From: Roseateles oligotrophus
GTDB taxonomy: Bacteria > Pseudomonadota > Gammaproteobacteria > Burkholderiales > Burkholderiaceae_C
Direction: 5' to 3'
Length of the DNA stretch: 64,000 bases
NCBI RefSeq assembly: GCF_014204525.1
Contig: NZ_JACHLP010000006.1
Span: 290,360-354,359, forward strand
The position numbers and the translations under genes were made by a program. The notes under the pieces were generated by a model, which saw only the letters and a list, made by a program, of their open reading frames with translations, ran no database searches and had not been told where the DNA came from. Of this stretch, positions 47,455 to 53,610 are shown piece by piece (the stretch's first letter is position 1; every line of letters starts with the position of its first letter).

Positions 47455-48348
47455 ATGAATCAAGACTTGGATTGGTCCTTGCTGCAGGTCTTTCTGGCCC
47501 TGGCCGAGGCCGGTTCGCTCAACCGGGCGGCTCCCCGGCTGGGCCAGAGCCAGCCCACGCTGAGCCGCCAGCTGGCGGCGCTGGAGGCGGATTTGGGCCA
47601 GACCCTGTTCGAGCGCCATGCCCGCGGCCTGCGCCTGACGGCCGCCGGTCAGGCCCTGCTGCCGGCCGCCCAGCGCATGTTTGATGCCGCGCGCGAGCTG
47701 AGCCTGGCGCTGGCCGCGCGCGACCAGTCCCTGGCCGGCACGGTGCGGCTGACGGCCAGCGAGGTGGTCAGCCATCACTTTTTGCCGCCGGTGCTGCTGG
47801 ACCTGCGGCGCCAGCACCCCGAGATCCAGATCGAGCTGGTGGCCAGCGACCAGGTGGCCAATCTGCAGGAGCGCAGCGCCGACATCGCCCTGCGCATGTT
47901 CCGCCCCGAGCAGCCCACCCTGGTGGCGCGCAAGCTGGGCGACTGGGCGCTGGGCTTTTACGTCCACCGCGACTACCTCGCCCGCCATGGCCGGCCCGAG
48001 ATGGGCAATCTGCTGCAGCACCAGTGGCTGGGTTATGACCAGTCCGAGCTGATGCTGCGCGGTTTTGCCCGGGCGGGATTCCAGATCGGGCGCGAGTTCT
48101 TCGGCTTTCGCTGCGACAACCAGTTGGTGGCCTGGGAATGCATGCGCGCCGGCATGGGCATCGCGGTCGGGCCGCAGGTGCTGGCGGCCAGGGACGCGGC
48201 CCTGCTGCGCGTGCTGCCCGAGATCCCCATCCCGCCCCTGCCTCTGTGGCTGACCGCCCACCGCGAGTTGCGCGACACGCCGCGCCTGCGCCTGGTCTTC
48301 GACGCCCTGGCCCAGGCCTTTGCCGCCCCTCCTACAATGCCCCCATGA
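47455..48348 (+). CDS. LysR-family regulator
   Basis: A 297-residue LTTR with an N-terminal winged helix (DWSLLQVFLALAEAGSLNRA, RLGQSQPTLSRQLAALEADL, LFERHARGLRLTAAG) and a substrate-binding domain (GTVRLTASEVVSHHFLPPVL). It is divergent from the epimerase/DUF4188 pair and probably regulates it. The stop overlaps the tldD ATG (48345-48348), which may be accidental, since TldD is housekeeping. Confidence 0.9.
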   Translation: MNQDLDWSLLQVFLALAEAGSLNRAAPRLGQSQPTLSRQLAALEADLGQTLFERHARGLRLTAAGQALLPAAQRMFDAARELSLALAARDQSLAGTVRLTASEVVSHHFLPPVLLDLRRQHPEIQIELVASDQVANLQERSADIALRMFRPEQPTLVARKLGDWALGFYVHRDYLARHGRPEMGNLLQHQWLGYDQSELMLRGFARAGFQIGREFFGFRCDNQLVAWECMRAGMGIAVGPQVLAARDAALLRVLPEIPIPPLPLWLTAHRELRDTPRLRLVFDALAQAFAAPPTMPP

Positions 48349-49808
48349 TTTCGCGCGAACCCACACTTGCCCGCCTGGTAGCAGCCCGTAGCCAATTGCT
48401 GGAGCCCTATGGTCTCAGCGAAGCGGTGCTCAACAAAGCCTTGCGGCTGATCACCGAGCATCGCGTCGATGATGCCGACCTCTACTTCCAGACCACCCGT
48501 GCCGAGGGCTGGAGCCTGGAGGAGGGCATCGTCAAGAGCGGCAGCTTCAGCATCGACCAGGGCGTGGGCGTGCGCGCCGTGACGGGCGAGAAGACGGCCT
48601 TTGCTTATTCCGACGACATCTCCGAGGCCGCCATCCTGGACGCCGCGCTGACCGTGCGCAGCATTGCCGCCGCCGGCCAGAGCCGTCGCGTCAAGGTGCC
48701 CAGCACGGGCACCGTGGCGGCCAGCCGCGCGCTCTACGGCATGGACGACCCCATCGCCAGCCTGGACAGCACCGAGAAAGTGGCCTTGCTGGAGCGCACC
48801 GAGCGCATGGCCCGCGCCAAGGACCCGCGCGTGGCCCAGGTCATGGCCGGCTTGGCCGCCGAGCATGAGGTGATTCTGGTGGCCCGTGCGGATGGAACAT
48901 TAGCCGCCGATGTGCGCCCTCTGGTGCGCCTGAGCGTGACCGTGATCGCCGAGAGCAATGGCCGCCGCGAGGTGGGCTCGGGCGGCGGCGGCGGCCGCTT
49001 CGGCCTGGCCTATTTCAGCGACGAGATGATTGCCAGTTATGTGGAGCAGGCCGTCACGGCGGCCCTGACCAATTTGGAATCGCGCCCGGCCCCGGCCGGC
49101 GAGATGACCGTGGTGCTGGGCCCGGGCTGGCCCGGTGTGCTCTTGCACGAAGCCATAGGCCATGGCCTGGAGGGTGACTTCAACCGCAAGGGCTCCAGCG
49201 CCTTTGCCGGCCGCATCGGCCAGCGCGTGGCCGCCAAGGGCGTGACGGTGCTGGACGACGGCACCCTGCCGGACCGCCGCGGCTCCATGAATGTGGACGA
49301 CGAGGGCTGTGCCTCGCAGCGCAATGTGTTGATCGAGGACGGCATTCTGAAGGGCTATATCCAGGACGCGATGAATGCGCGCCTGATGAAGGTGGCGCCC
49401 ACCGGCAACGGTCGACGTGAGAGTTATGCCCATGTGCCCATGCCGCGCATGACCAACACCTATATGCTGGGTGGCGACAAAGATCCGAAGGAAATCATCG
49501 CCAGCATCAAGAAAGGCCTCTACGCCAGCAACTTCGGCGGCGGCCAGGTGGACATCACCTCGGGCAAATTCGTGTTCTCCGCCAGCGAGGCCTTCTGGGT
49601 CGAGAACGGCCAGATCCAATACCCCGTCAAGGGCGCCACCATCATCGGTAACGGCCCAGACGCACTGACCCGGGTCAGCATGATTGGCAACGATATGCAG
49701 CTGGACACCGGCGTCGGCGTCTGCGGCAAGGAGGGCCAGAGCGTGCCGGTGGGCGTGGGCCAGCCAACGCTGCGCATCGACGGTTTGACGGTGGGCGGTA
49801 CCGCCTGA
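48345..49808 (+). CDS. tldD: Metalloprotease TldD
   Basis: A 487-residue zinc protease that with TldE (PmbA) degrades unfolded peptides and matures microcins and similar peptides in E. coli. The metal motif is HEAIGH (268-273, within LLHEAIGHGLEGD), and a Cys-containing GKEGQSVPVGVGQPTLRI is conserved near the C-terminus. It starts at ATG 48345, which overlaps the LysR stop. Its partner PmbA is not in the window. A 38-bp gap separates it from the aromatic leader peptide. Confidence 0.93.
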   Translation: MISREPTLARLVAARSQLLEPYGLSEAVLNKALRLITEHRVDDADLYFQTTRAEGWSLEEGIVKSGSFSIDQGVGVRAVTGEKTAFAYSDDISEAAILDAALTVRSIAAAGQSRRVKVPSTGTVAASRALYGMDDPIASLDSTEKVALLERTERMARAKDPRVAQVMAGLAAEHEVILVARADGTLAADVRPLVRLSVTVIAESNGRREVGSGGGGGRFGLAYFSDEMIASYVEQAVTAALTNLESRPAPAGEMTVVLGPGWPGVLLHEAIGHGLEGDFNRKGSSAFAGRIGQRVAAKGVTVLDDGTLPDRRGSMNVDDEGCASQRNVLIEDGILKGYIQDAMNARLMKVAPTGNGRRESYAHVPMPRMTNTYMLGGDKDPKEIIASIKKGLYASNFGGGQVDITSGKFVFSASEAFWVENGQIQYPVKGATIIGNGPDALTRVSMIGNDMQLDTGVGVCGKEGQSVPVGVGQPTLRIDGLTVGGTA

Positions 49809-49845
49809 AAGCTTGGCGTCAAAAGAGCGTGCTACATTCCAGCCC

Positions 49846-49935
49846 ATGATTTCGCGCCCGGTGTGTTTCTTTTTTGCGTATTTTTGGTTCTCTGGCCCAA
49901 GGCGGCTGAGAGGCGATGACGCGAACACGCGATAG
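49846..49935 (+). CDS. Phe-rich leader peptide of the DAHP synthase gene
   Basis: A 29-codon frame (ATG 49846, TAG 49933-49935) whose codons 7-15 read Cys-Phe-Phe-Phe-Ala-Tyr-Phe-Trp-Phe: five Phe, one Tyr and one Trp in a row of nine. No strong SD is present, so it may be translated from a very short 5' end. It is the expected control peptide of a ribosome-mediated attenuator for the downstream aromatic pathway gene. The aromatic codons occupy 49867-49890, just before the first RNA segment that can fold. Confidence 0.75.
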   Translation: MISRPVCFFFAYFWFSGPRRLRGDDANTR

Positions 49936-49986
49936 CGCAGCAGATCTCAGAAAACCGCCCGGCCCCCAGCCAGGCGGTTTTTTTTT
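49901..49986 (+). terminator. Attenuator: antiterminator and terminator before DAHP synthase
   Basis: Terminator: AAACCGCC at 49952-49959 pairs with GGCGGTTT at 49973-49980, followed by eight or more T. Antiterminator: GGCGG-CTGAG at 49901-49910 can pair with CTCAG (49946-49950) and CCGCC (49955-49959), which would sequester the terminator's left arm. A further pairing of CTCT (49890-49893) with AGAG (49909-49912) could block the antiterminator. Ribosome stalling at the Phe codons would favour antitermination. Confidence 0.7.
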
Positions 49987-50026
49987 GCCTCATTCCTTTT
50001 TTCTTTTCAGCCGAGAGACGTCACAC

Positions 50027-51166
50027 ATGAATGCCAAGAATGCCAAGCATGAGAAAGCGGAACACCAGGCCGAACGCTGGTACTCCCCGCAGGACAAGAC
50101 CAGCCAGACGGATGACCAGCGCATCCGTGACGTCACTCCGCTGCCCCCGCCCGAGCACCTGATCCGCTTCTTCCCCATCAGCGGCACGCCGATGGAAAAG
50201 CTGATCAGCGGCACGCGCGAGAACATCCGCAAGATCATGGAGCGCAAGGACGATCGCCTGCTGCTCATCATCGGCCCCTGCTCCATCCACGACCCGGCCG
50301 CCGCCGTCGAGTACGCCCGCCGCCTGCAGGTGCAGCGCGAGAAGTACGCCGACACGCTGGAGATCGTCATGCGCGTCTACTTCGAGAAGCCGCGCACCAC
50401 GGTGGGCTGGAAGGGCTTGATCAACGACCCCTATCTGGACGAGAGCTACCGCATCGACGAGGGTCTGCGCATCGCCCGCCAGCTGCTGCTGGAGATCAAC
50501 CGCCTGGGCATGCCGGCGGGTTCGGAGTTCCTGGACGTGATCTCGCCGCAATACATCGGCGACCTGATCTCCTGGGGCGCCATCGGCGCGCGCACCACCG
50601 AGAGCCAGGTGCACCGCGAGCTGGCCTCGGGCCTGTCCGCCCCCATCGGCTTCAAGAACGGCACCGACGGCAATATCAAGATCGCCACCGACGCCATCCA
50701 GGCCGCCGCCCGCCCGCACCACTTCCTGTCGGTGCACAAAAACGGCCAGGTCGCCATCGTCGAGACCAAGGGCAATAAGGACTGCCACGTCATCCTGCGC
50801 GGCGGCAACAAGGCCCCCAATTACGATGCCGACAGCGTGGCCGCCGCCTGCAAGGAGCTGGCCGCGGCCAAGCTGGACACGACGCTGATGGTGGACTGCT
50901 CGCATGCCAATAGCTCCAAGCAGCACAAGCGCCAGCTCGATGTGGCGCGCGATGTGGCGGCCCAGCTCAAGGCGGGCAGCCGGCATATCTTCGGCCTGAT
51001 GGTGGAAAGCCATTTGTTCGACGGCGCGCAGAAGTTCAGCCCCGGCAAGGATGACCCGGCCCAGCTGGAGTACGGCAAGAGCATCACCGATGCCTGCCTG
51101 GGCTGGGACGACTCCCTGGCCGTGCTGGAGGTGCTGAGCGAGGCGGTCAAGAGCGCCCGCGGCTGA
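50027..51166 (+). CDS. aroG: 3-deoxy-D-arabino-heptulosonate 7-phosphate synthase, class I
   Basis: A 379-residue class I DAHP synthase (AroG/AroF/AroH type) that condenses phosphoenolpyruvate and erythrose 4-phosphate in the first committed step of aromatic amino acid synthesis. Family stretches: LLLIIGPCSIHDPAAAVEYA, MRVYFEKPRTTVGWKGLINDP, ISWGAIGARTTESQVHRELA, IGFKNGTDGNIKIA, HVILRGGNKAPNYD and VDCSHANSSK, with ESHLFDGAQK near the C-terminus. Which amino acid feeds back on it is not certain; the leader suggests phenylalanine. ATG 50027 is used. Confidence 0.95.
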   Translation: MNAKNAKHEKAEHQAERWYSPQDKTSQTDDQRIRDVTPLPPPEHLIRFFPISGTPMEKLISGTRENIRKIMERKDDRLLLIIGPCSIHDPAAAVEYARRLQVQREKYADTLEIVMRVYFEKPRTTVGWKGLINDPYLDESYRIDEGLRIARQLLLEINRLGMPAGSEFLDVISPQYIGDLISWGAIGARTTESQVHRELASGLSAPIGFKNGTDGNIKIATDAIQAAARPHHFLSVHKNGQVAIVETKGNKDCHVILRGGNKAPNYDADSVAAACKELAAAKLDTTLMVDCSHANSSKQHKRQLDVARDVAAQLKAGSRHIFGLMVESHLFDGAQKFSPGKDDPAQLEYGKSITDACLGWDDSLAVLEVLSEAVKSARG

Positions 51167-51260
51167 GCGAAGCAGCCCGGCTCCCCGGCGCTTGCCGCAA
51201 AATAGGGCTGGGCCTCGCTCACAGGGCTCGCATCCGGTGGTTCATTTGAAGGAGTCAGGA

Positions 51261-51572
51261 ATGCACAGCACAGTCAAGGTCGTGTTCGGCCCAGCGCATG
51301 AATTTGATCTGCAGGTCGATGGCAGCGAGGTTCTGTCCTTCGAGGCCGCACGGGCATGGCTGGATGAGCAGTTCGTTCTGCATGGCTGTGTGCCCATGCG
51401 TGGTTCGGGCAAGGTCTTGATCGCCGACAAGATCGTGGCCGTGGCCGCCGCCTTGGGGCCGGCCGCCTTTGCCGATCCGGCCCTGGCCCTGGACTATGCT
51501 CGCGCCGCCAGCGGTGCCCTGAGCAAGGCCTTGCTGCGCGTGGACGTGGCCAAGCACGCCATCTCTTATTGA
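51261..51572 (+). CDS. Hypothetical protein
   Basis: A 103-residue protein with a strong SD (GAAGGAG) before ATG 51261. It is predicted alpha/beta, with a short strand ([16 protein letters not shown]), a helix ([17 protein letters not shown]) and helical Ala-rich segments at the end. I do not recognise a family. It lies between DAHP synthase and htpG with its own likely promoter. It is conserved enough in codon use to be called real. Confidence 0.65.
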
Positions 51573-51729
51573 CGCGGCCTTCGGCAGGCGAAAATCAAGC
51601 CTTGAAATGCAAGCCGGCGACCCCAGGTGCGGGGCGCTGGCTGCTGTTTCTTGCCTGCCTGCGCGCAAGCAGGACCAAGCGGCACTCTCATTTGAATTTT
51701 TCTCTTTCAAGAACAAGCTCAGACAAGCC

Positions 51730-53610
51730 ATGACCAAGCAAACCCATTCCTTCCAGGCCGAGGTCAAGCAGATCCTGCACCTCGTCACCCACTCGCTCTA
51801 CTCCAACAAGGAAATCTTCCTGCGCGAGCTGGTCTCCAACGCTTCTGATGCCTGCGACAAGCTGCGCTTTGAGGCTCTGGACAACGCCGCCCTGTTCGAG
51901 GACACGCCGAATCTGGAAGTTCGGGTCTCCTTCGACGAAGCCGCCCGCACCGTCACCATCAGCGACAACGGCATCGGCATGAGCGCCGAGGAAGCGATTG
52001 CTCATCTGGGCACCATCGCCAAGAGCGGTACGCGCGAATTCATGGCCAAGCTGGAAGGCGATCAGAAGAAGGACGCCAATCTGATCGGCCAGTTCGGCGT
52101 GGGCTTTTACTCGGGCTTTATCGTCGCCGACCGCATCACGGTGGAAACCCGCCGCGCCGGCTTGGCCGCCGAGCAGGGTGTGCGCTGGAGCAGCGAGGGC
52201 ACGGGCGACTACGAGGTCGAGAGCATCAACAAACCCGGCCGCGGCACCGATGTGATCCTGCATCTGCGCGAGGGCGAGGAGGAGTTCCTCAAGACCTGGC
52301 GCCTGAAGTCCATCATCAGCAAATACTCCGACCACATCTCCCTGCCCATCCTGATGCGCAAGGAAGAGTGGGACGCCGAGAAGAGCGAGCAGGTGCTGAA
52401 GGACGAGTGGGAGCCGGTCAACAAGGCCTCGGCCCTGTGGTCGCGCAGCAAGAGCGAGGTCACGCAGGAGCAGTACGAGGAGTTTTACAAGCAGATCAGC
52501 TACGACAGCGAAGCGCCGCTGGCTCACACGCATAACCGCGTGGAAGGACGCAGCGAATACACCCAGCTGCTCTACATTCCCAAGACGGCGCCGTTTGACC
52601 TGTGGAACCGCGACAAGCGTGGCGGCGTCAAGCTCTACGTCAAGCGCGTCTTCATCATGGACGATGCCGAGGCGCTGATGCCGGTCTATCTGCGCTTCGT
52701 CAAGGGCGTGATCGATTCGGCCGATCTGCCACTCAACGTCAGCCGCGAACTGCTGCAGGAAAGCCGCGATGTGAAGGCCATCCGCGAGGGTTCGACCAAG
52801 CGCGTGCTCTCCATACTGGAGACCCTGGCCGATAGCGAGGACGCCGCCGAACGCGCCAAATACGCGGACTTCTGGAAGGACTTCGGCTCGGTGCTGAAGG
52901 AGGGTGTGGGCGAGGACCATGCCAACCAGGAACGCCTGGCCAAGCTCTTGCGCTTTGCCTCCACCCATGCCGACGAGGGCGTCTCCCTGGCCGACTACCT
53001 GAAGCGCGCCAAGGAAGACCAGGACGCGATCTACTACATCACCGCCGACAGCCTCAGCGCCGCCAAGAACAGCCCGCAGCTGGAGATCTTCCGCAAAAAA
53101 GGCATCGAGGTGCTGCTGCTGACCGACCGGGTGGACGAGTGGATGCTGTCCCATCTCTACGAATTCGAGGGCAAGCCCCTGCAGTCGGTGGCCAAGGGCG
53201 CGATGGATCTGGGCAAGCTGCAGGACGAGGAAGAGAAGAAGAAGGCCGAAGAGGTTGCTGAAAACCTCAAGCCCCTGCTGGACCGTCTGAAGGAGGCGCT
53301 GAAGAGCCGCGCCAAGGATGTGCGCGTCTCCACCCGCCTGGTCGATTCCCCCGCCTGCATCGTGGTGGAAGAGGGCGATATGAGCGGCCATCTGGCCCGC
53401 CTGCTCAAGCAGGCCGGCCAGGCCGCGCCGGCCTCCCTGCCCACGCTGGAAATCAATGCCGAGCATGCCCTGGTTAAGAAGCTGGACGGCAGCGCCCAGT
53501 TCGATGAGCTGGCCCAGGTGATCTTCGACCAGGCCGTGCTGGCCGAGGGCGGGCATCTGGAAGATCCTGCCGCCTATGTGCGTCGGGTCAACGCGATGTT
53601 GCTGGCCTGA
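51730..53610 (+). CDS. htpG: Molecular chaperone HtpG (Hsp90)
   Basis: A 626-residue bacterial Hsp90. The N-terminal GHKL ATPase domain has [33 protein letters not shown] and [18 protein letters not shown]. The middle domain includes [20 protein letters not shown] and [20 protein letters not shown], and the C-terminal dimerisation domain follows from about 510. It assists client folding and cooperates with DnaK. ATG 51730 begins [14 protein letters not shown]. The length matches the family. Confidence 0.97.

Follow-up and report, generated by a model that had tools for sequence, protein, structure and literature searches.

We have found, directly upstream of the DAHP synthase gene of Roseateles oligotrophus, what is very probably a ribosome-mediated transcription attenuator acting on the first enzyme of the shikimate pathway. 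It lies in a window of 64,000 nucleotides (contig NZ_JACHLP010000006.1 of assembly GCF_014204525.1), the whole stretch of DNA that was analyzed, to which all positions refer unless stated otherwise. Aromatic amino acid synthesis begins with DAHP synthase, for which control by repressors and feedback inhibition is usually described. The features of the region are collected in Table 1.

Table 1. Features of the DAHP synthase attenuator region (positions in the window).
Feature	Position	Strand	Basis
Extended -10 element TGCTACATT, its end separated from the leader ATG by 7 nt; transcription predicted to start at the AUG or within about 2 nt of it	49830..49838	+	family comparison
Leader peptide ORF MISRPVCFFFAYFWFSGPRRLRGDDANTR	49846..49935	+	sequence; aromatic leader in 70/70 inspected family loci
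Control codons FFFAYFWF (5 Phe, 1 Tyr, 1 Trp)	49867..49890	+	unique in the window; variation in relatives mostly silent or between F and Y
Arm 1, CTCT, potentially pairing with AGAG 49909-49912 (pause hairpin)	49890..49893	+	near-invariant columns; weak
Arm 2, GGCGGCTGAGA, 5' half of the antiterminator, within the leader ORF	49901..49911	+	alignment, flank, phase and swap analyses
Arm 3, TCTCAGAAAACCGCC, 3' half of the antiterminator; its CCGCC doubles as 5' half of the terminator	49945..49959	+	alignment, flank and swap analyses
Intrinsic terminator, arms 3 and 4, AAACCGCC...GGCGGTTT, then T run	49952..49986	+	sequence, folding, swap analysis
Type I-alpha DAHP synthase (aroFGH, AroG-like), presumed controlled gene	50027..51166	+	TIGR00034, 527.5 bits (cut-off 173.2)

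The leader ORF opens with an ATG at 49846 and closes with a TAG at 49933-49935, making 29 codons, and the CFFFAYFWF segment of its product is encoded at 49864-49890; every coordinate in the sequence-only reading proved exact. When all frames of both strands of the window were searched for 8-residue stretches with at least seven Phe, Tyr or Trp, that of the leader was the only one. This is a short leader ORF with a run of end-product codons, as in ribosome-mediated attenuators. Among 73 aligned leaders of the family the FWF of the control block is fixed, third codon positions vary and F and Y are exchanged; conservation of the aromatic frame is seen in its amino acids.

The set of leaders compared across families numbered 167, after exclusion of two loci without DAHP synthase (L251 and L252), one in which no ORF was picked (L238) and identical leaders; the starts of L007 and L004 were assigned by hand, and three of the 167 could not be parsed, leaving 164. 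Their aromatic codons were TTT (457), TTC (302), TAC (149), TAT (124) and TGG (121), and the part of a leader upstream of arm 2 contained a mean of 4.6 codons for Phe, 1.7 for Tyr and 0.7 for Trp. At least three Phe codons were present in 160 of the 164, Tyr in 148 and Trp in 116. The Phe codons, whose conservation was to be tested, are indeed conserved, but the signal is better widened from Phe to Phe, Tyr and Trp. The natural reading of this codon content is that the leader would sense a pooled aromatic signal, Phe foremost. As to codon choice, TTT is in excess in leaders of family f1, where it makes up 217 of 369 Phe codons, while three window genes use it for 8 of 41.

An intrinsic terminator lies between leader and structural gene, ending 40 nt before the DAHP synthase start: its two halves, AAACCGCC (49952-49959) and GGCGGTTT (49973-49980), are followed by a T run at 49978-49986. 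The terminator with T run proposed from 49952 onward is borne out by sequence and also by folding, since the attenuator region folds better than all of 200 dinucleotide shuffles (z = -3.41). The median energy of the terminator hairpin over the 164 parsed sequences was -19.3 kcal/mol. For the antiterminator, the sequence-only reading had paired GGCGGCTGAG (49901-49910) with a 3' half at 49946-49959 that includes CTCAG (49946-49950) and CCGCC (49955-49959); this helix was confirmed and is slightly longer than claimed, consisting of GGCGG/CCGCC (5 pairs) and CTGAGA/TCTCAG (6 pairs). The antiterminator is conserved, in comparisons that ignore kinship, and excludes the terminator, and after the whole terminator has been made it no longer is the fold of lowest energy. 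With arm 2 free and the window RNA made through arm 3, the antiterminator fold is obtained (-23.1 kcal/mol); with only the RNA beyond a ribosome at the stop codon free, the terminator fold (-20.8 kcal/mol); and with arm 2 free and the terminator complete, the minimum-energy fold keeps the terminator (-33.6 kcal/mol) together with the CTGAGA/TCTCAG helix only. Because the complete RNA with arm 2 free still folds the terminator, the antiterminator must win by forming first.

The gene behind the attenuator is a DAHP synthase, as had been stated from its letters: it matches TIGR00034, and its nearest solved structures are those of the Phe-sensitive AroG of E. coli. At the position of E. coli AroG Ser211, a site that we take to distinguish Phe- from Tyr-sensitive DAHP synthases, the leader-bearing enzyme has Ser. 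The genome holds a paralogous DAHP synthase (L002:1441-2571), 56% identical, with Gly at that position, and no aromatic leader was seen in the 300 nt read upstream of it.

DAHP synthase was found in 295 of 299 genomes of the family (f1), to which the genome of the window belongs. We inspected 70 of these loci, made up of the 30 best matches and of 40 further genera among the matches listed, with the lower-scoring ones outside the sample, and an aromatic leader plus terminator preceded the gene in all of them (30/30 and 40/40). Their alignment shows four blocks with little or no variation, namely GGCGG, GAGAG, CCGCC and a second GGCGG. Presence in 70 of 70 orthologues argues that the attenuator is not a chance arrangement of letters.

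We then searched more distant genomes with a covariance model built from the 70 loci. Among 80 named loci it matched upstream of DAHP synthase in 61 (E of 0.0056 or lower), including Burkholderia, Caballeronia, Paraburkholderia, Massilia, Rugamonas, Janthinobacterium and one Cupriavidus; the 19 named loci without a match included Polynucleobacter, two Cupriavidus, Rhodocyclus, Thauera, Methylotenera and one with nearly no upstream DNA. Over the order, 101 matches were obtained in 100 of 399 genomes, 99 of them directly upstream of DAHP synthase and distributed over 14 families; the two others were the weakest of the 101. The remaining 299 genomes gave no match, which under the strict filters of these genome searches does not equal absence of the element. 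In this way the conservation across Burkholderiales that the sequence-only reading had asked about was found, within the family for leader, aromatic codons and terminator alike, and beyond it as an element before DAHP synthase. Over the class, 13 of 369 genomes matched, three of them members of the family; among the ten outside it, four (L253-L256, three of f63 and one of f68) have an aromatic leader before DAHP synthase. The other six class matches do not show this arrangement and look like chance hits. By eye, in three Polynucleobacter loci (L094-L096) and one other beta-proteobacterial locus (L119), tldD seems to be the immediate upstream neighbor of DAHP synthase, and neither a leader nor a model match is present; the element may have been lost in these loci.

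The stem core of the attenuator is invariant across the alignment, and the co-adaptation of the arms was examined by exchanging partners between sequences. Own arms paired better than swapped ones over the 164 sequences, with z = -12.1 for the antiterminator and -15.4 for the terminator, and also within the family (z = -4.5 for each), in a comparison that ignores kinship among the sequences. At the base next to the three core arms, 74 of the 164 sequences have C-G-C and 35 have T-A-T, counts that likewise ignore kinship. This flank position pairs between arms 2 and 3 in 130 sequences, between arms 3 and 4 in 144 and in both ways in 117; it does not pair in 34 and 20, respectively. The covariation of the stems by which the proposal was to be judged is thus seen in most sequences as a joint shift of the flanks of all three arms, again with kinship ignored. 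For the pairing of arm 1 with arm 2, both near invariant, the swap gave z = -5.8 overall, -5.7 in the other families and -0.1 within the family. The CTCT/AGAG pairing, offered originally as one of three exclusive structures, exists in the sequence but is the weakest of the three, without co-adaptation inside the family.

The reading frame and the RNA behave differently downstream of the control block. Relative to the leader, the phase of GGCGG is 0 in 58 of the 77 leaders of the family; most other families have it in phase 2, and phase 1 prevails in f3 and f10. The window leader reads PRRLRG there whereas most relatives read HRTGGGE or similar, with the RNA alike. The RNA is kept but the frame is not, and selection in this part looks to be at the RNA level. 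As for spacing, the distance from the first base of the last aromatic codon to the start of GGCGG is 11-15 nt in 148 of the 164 leaders (range 4-21). From toeprinting, a ribosome is known to extend roughly this far beyond its A site. The distance from arm 2 to the stop codon is 6-33 nt. With a ribosome of that reach, the control codons are placed such that arm 2 would be free when the ribosome stalls and hindered when it has finished.

The spacing between the promoter and the leader suggests that the message has no 5' untranslated region. A scan requiring a -35 box found no sigma-70 site, and the extended -10 emerged from the comparison of loci. This element reads TGCTACATT in most cases. If leader starts are assigned blind to it, as the last in-frame ATG before the aromatic block, the motif TGnTAnnnT ends 6-10 nt ahead of the ATG in 65 of the 77 leaders of the family; with starts chosen partly by the -10 score, a choice that favors the leaderless reading, the count is 69 of 77. 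Of 3865 other ATGs in these loci, 2 have the motif at that spacing, and because of this difference between 65/77 and 2/3865 we regard the DAHP synthase leader as probably leaderless. A Shine-Dalgarno-like motif precedes one of the 77 family leaders compared with 44 of 69 DAHP synthase starts. Hence the arrangement of leaderless leader peptides of the trpL type of Sinorhizobium meliloti, a near -10 without a Shine-Dalgarno motif, is found here with a gap of 7 nt.

With starts chosen regardless of the element, TGnTAnnnT was at this distance in 11 of 11 leaders of f23, 7 of 9 of f4, 6 of 7 of f44 and the single one of f40. Counting all 167 leaders, 94 have it. In f13, 9 of 10 leaders have the looser TAnnnT, and in f10, 8 of 11 do (control 54/3865). 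The spacing was absent in f32, f8, f3, f11 and the four sequences outside the order, and also in f20 except for one TAnnnT. Judged by this motif, leaderlessness is common, not universal, among these leaders. Burkholderia, Caballeronia and Paraburkholderia loci (L121, L123-L126, L130, L134, L136, L138 and L139) have the same attenuator; leaders of f32 resemble those of named Burkholderia loci. Where loci of the Burkholderia type have enough upstream sequence, a TATAAA-like box is seen by eye about 35-45 nt before the leader AUG, with no clear Shine-Dalgarno motif. They may represent a shift from or to the leaderless form.

From the anatomy, conservation, geometry, pairings and promoter spacing described above we infer as follows where transcription starts, how it ends in the cell and how amino acids would act on it. 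RNA polymerase would start at the leader AUG or within about two bases of it, and a ribosome would load on the leaderless 5' end. When Phe-, Tyr- or Trp-tRNA is short, this ribosome would stall in FFFAYFWF with its front edge just before arm 2; the free arm 2 would pair with arm 3 as soon as the latter is made, the terminator would be pre-empted and DAHP synthase transcribed. When charged aromatic tRNAs are ample, the ribosome would reach the stop codon and hinder arm 2, so that arms 3 and 4 would pair and transcription would end in the T run. The trp- or pheA-like architecture that the sequence-only reading had seen before DAHP synthase is supported by the anatomy, by the 70/70 conservation, by the arm swaps and by the codon geometry.

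Other readings of the same sequence have been weighed. The hairpin could be the terminator of the upstream gene tldD, with the Phe-rich ORF incidental, considering that the same strand carries tldD, whose end at 49808 is 143 nt ahead of the hairpin, and that a tldD end is found upstream of the leader in 49 of the 70 family loci. However, leader and terminator are both retained in the other 21, where no tldD end occurs within the 273-400 nt examined upstream, and because of them the element goes with DAHP synthase and the assignment to tldD was rejected. The 99 of 101 order matches that precede DAHP synthase and the amino acid level conservation of the aromatic frame also speak against the tldD reading, which we find hardly credible.

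It is very unlikely that the leader works as a TnaC-like arrest peptide, sensing a free amino acid in the exit tunnel instead of tRNA charging. The similarity of the C-terminal part in close relatives (FWFSHRTGGGEANA) would fit such a peptide, but between families this part alters in frame and sequence while the RNA stays, and the control block tolerates the exchange of F and Y. As for action in trans, the terminated leaderless RNA, of about 140 nt, has the same general form as rnTrpL/peTrpL of S. meliloti, a short mRNA from AUG to attenuator terminator, and RNA and peptide might act on other transcripts besides or instead of in cis. Attenuation in cis already accounts for the conservation seen, and action in trans appears improbable to us.

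The pheA (pheL) and trp (trpL) attenuators of enterobacteria have a short leader ORF with clustered end-product codons, and an antiterminator and a terminator that compete for one arm. The leader described here is alike in the end-product codons and in the two structures competing for one arm, and its proposed mechanism is classical ribosome-mediated attenuation as in trp and phe. It differs in that it controls no terminal branch, would respond to up to three aromatic amino acids and is probably leaderless. The ilvGMEDA and thr leaders are cases in which one leader senses several related amino acids, similar in this respect, although they belong to the branched-chain and threonine pathways. 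Leaderless polycysteine attenuators of mycobacteria have reportedly been described (Canestrari, 2020), and the work of Vitreschak (2004) is said to cover gamma- and alpha-proteobacteria. In S. meliloti, trpL (rnTrpL/peTrpL) is a leaderless attenuator transcript that starts at its AUG (PMC7298713). It shares with the mycobacterial cases and with our leader a transcript starting at the AUG; both known cases differ from ours in amino acid, target genes and bacterial group.

Attenuation before DAHP synthase genes has been proposed elsewhere. The uORFC-13-1 motif, with 24 examples and a ribosome binding site, was predicted upstream of aroF in Acholeplasma and environmental DNA (PMC8632094), and the same paper refers to a previous hypothesis that attenuation acts on E. 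coli aroF. Compared by the description given in the accessible part of that paper, the motif is alike in having a predicted uORF with at least one Phe codon and a terminator before a DAHP synthase gene, and differs in its Acholeplasma and environmental origin and in its ribosome binding site. In a database of putative attenuators (Merino; PMC1173090), entries for two Vibrio species precede aroA(I-alpha,Y)-tyrA; from the portion of the paper available, they resemble ours in standing before a DAHP synthase gene but concern a Tyr-type enzyme in an operon with tyrA. The Bordetella entry of its table, in the same portion, precedes gyrA-serC-pheA-tyrA and not DAHP synthase. In the open-access literature we found no description of a DAHP synthase attenuator in beta-proteobacteria. 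This agrees with the remark of the sequence-only reading that it knew of no established example in this group; outside the group there are the proposals for Acholeplasma, E. coli and Vibrio. Within the same open-access literature we did not find described the beta-proteobacterial family of attenuators, the three-aromatic codon set, the leaderless form or the parallel in leuA presented below.

Rfam holds a Phe_leader family. In Rfam 15 no family reached its threshold in 48000-53000, and the three matches up to E = 10 in this region did not include the Phe or Trp leader models; Thr_leader overlapped the terminator with E = 1.7 and 20.6 bits, against a gathering score of 55. Searches up to E = 1 with the locus itself and three relatives (L001, L123, L140 and L254) and with the leuA locus gave only one unrelated snoRNA match and no Phe_leader. 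A conserved DAHP synthase attenuator in many families, unmatched by Rfam, would add a control layer in beta-proteobacteria. It would also explain a set of small ORFs and provide an easily testable case of attenuation on a leaderless message.

A second leader of similar layout was found in the same genome. It is a 17-codon ORF, MNFLRVPALLLGSQRVP, with three CTA codons, followed by a hairpin and a T run, upstream of 2-isopropylmalate synthase (leuA; L264:1501-1640, G000:C4:20668 onward). In three genes of the window CTA accounts for none of the 141 Leu codons. Among 21 leuA loci examined (of 28 best matches; relatives L270-L290), 18 have a leader rich in Leu whose ATG is preceded by TAnnnT at 6-10 nt, and of the three without a leader two are on cut-off contigs. 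The folding of the leuA leader is not clearly above that of shuffles (z = -1.59, 12 of 200 equally good). From its sequence it is a probable second leaderless attenuator in this genome, and because two attenuator-like leaders, those of DAHP synthase and leuA, have one layout, the leaderless reading is supported. With little more than even confidence, we would extend this to leaderless leader peptides being the standard form of biosynthetic attenuator in much of Burkholderiales, on the basis of the -10 shared at 6-10 nt by DAHP synthase and leuA, with initiation at a bare AUG setting attenuation and with the DAHP synthase leader pooling three aromatic supplies into one signal.

Three sites in the genome match the pattern GTGCTANANT-N6-8-ATG, namely the DAHP synthase leader, the leuA leader and a TetR-like gene; the reversed control of the pattern has two, so that taken alone the pattern is not enriched. 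The TetR-like regulator gene, recognized by eye (L263, G000:C1:173601-173619), starts 6-8 nt after the same extended -10, and its mRNA is possibly leaderless as well.
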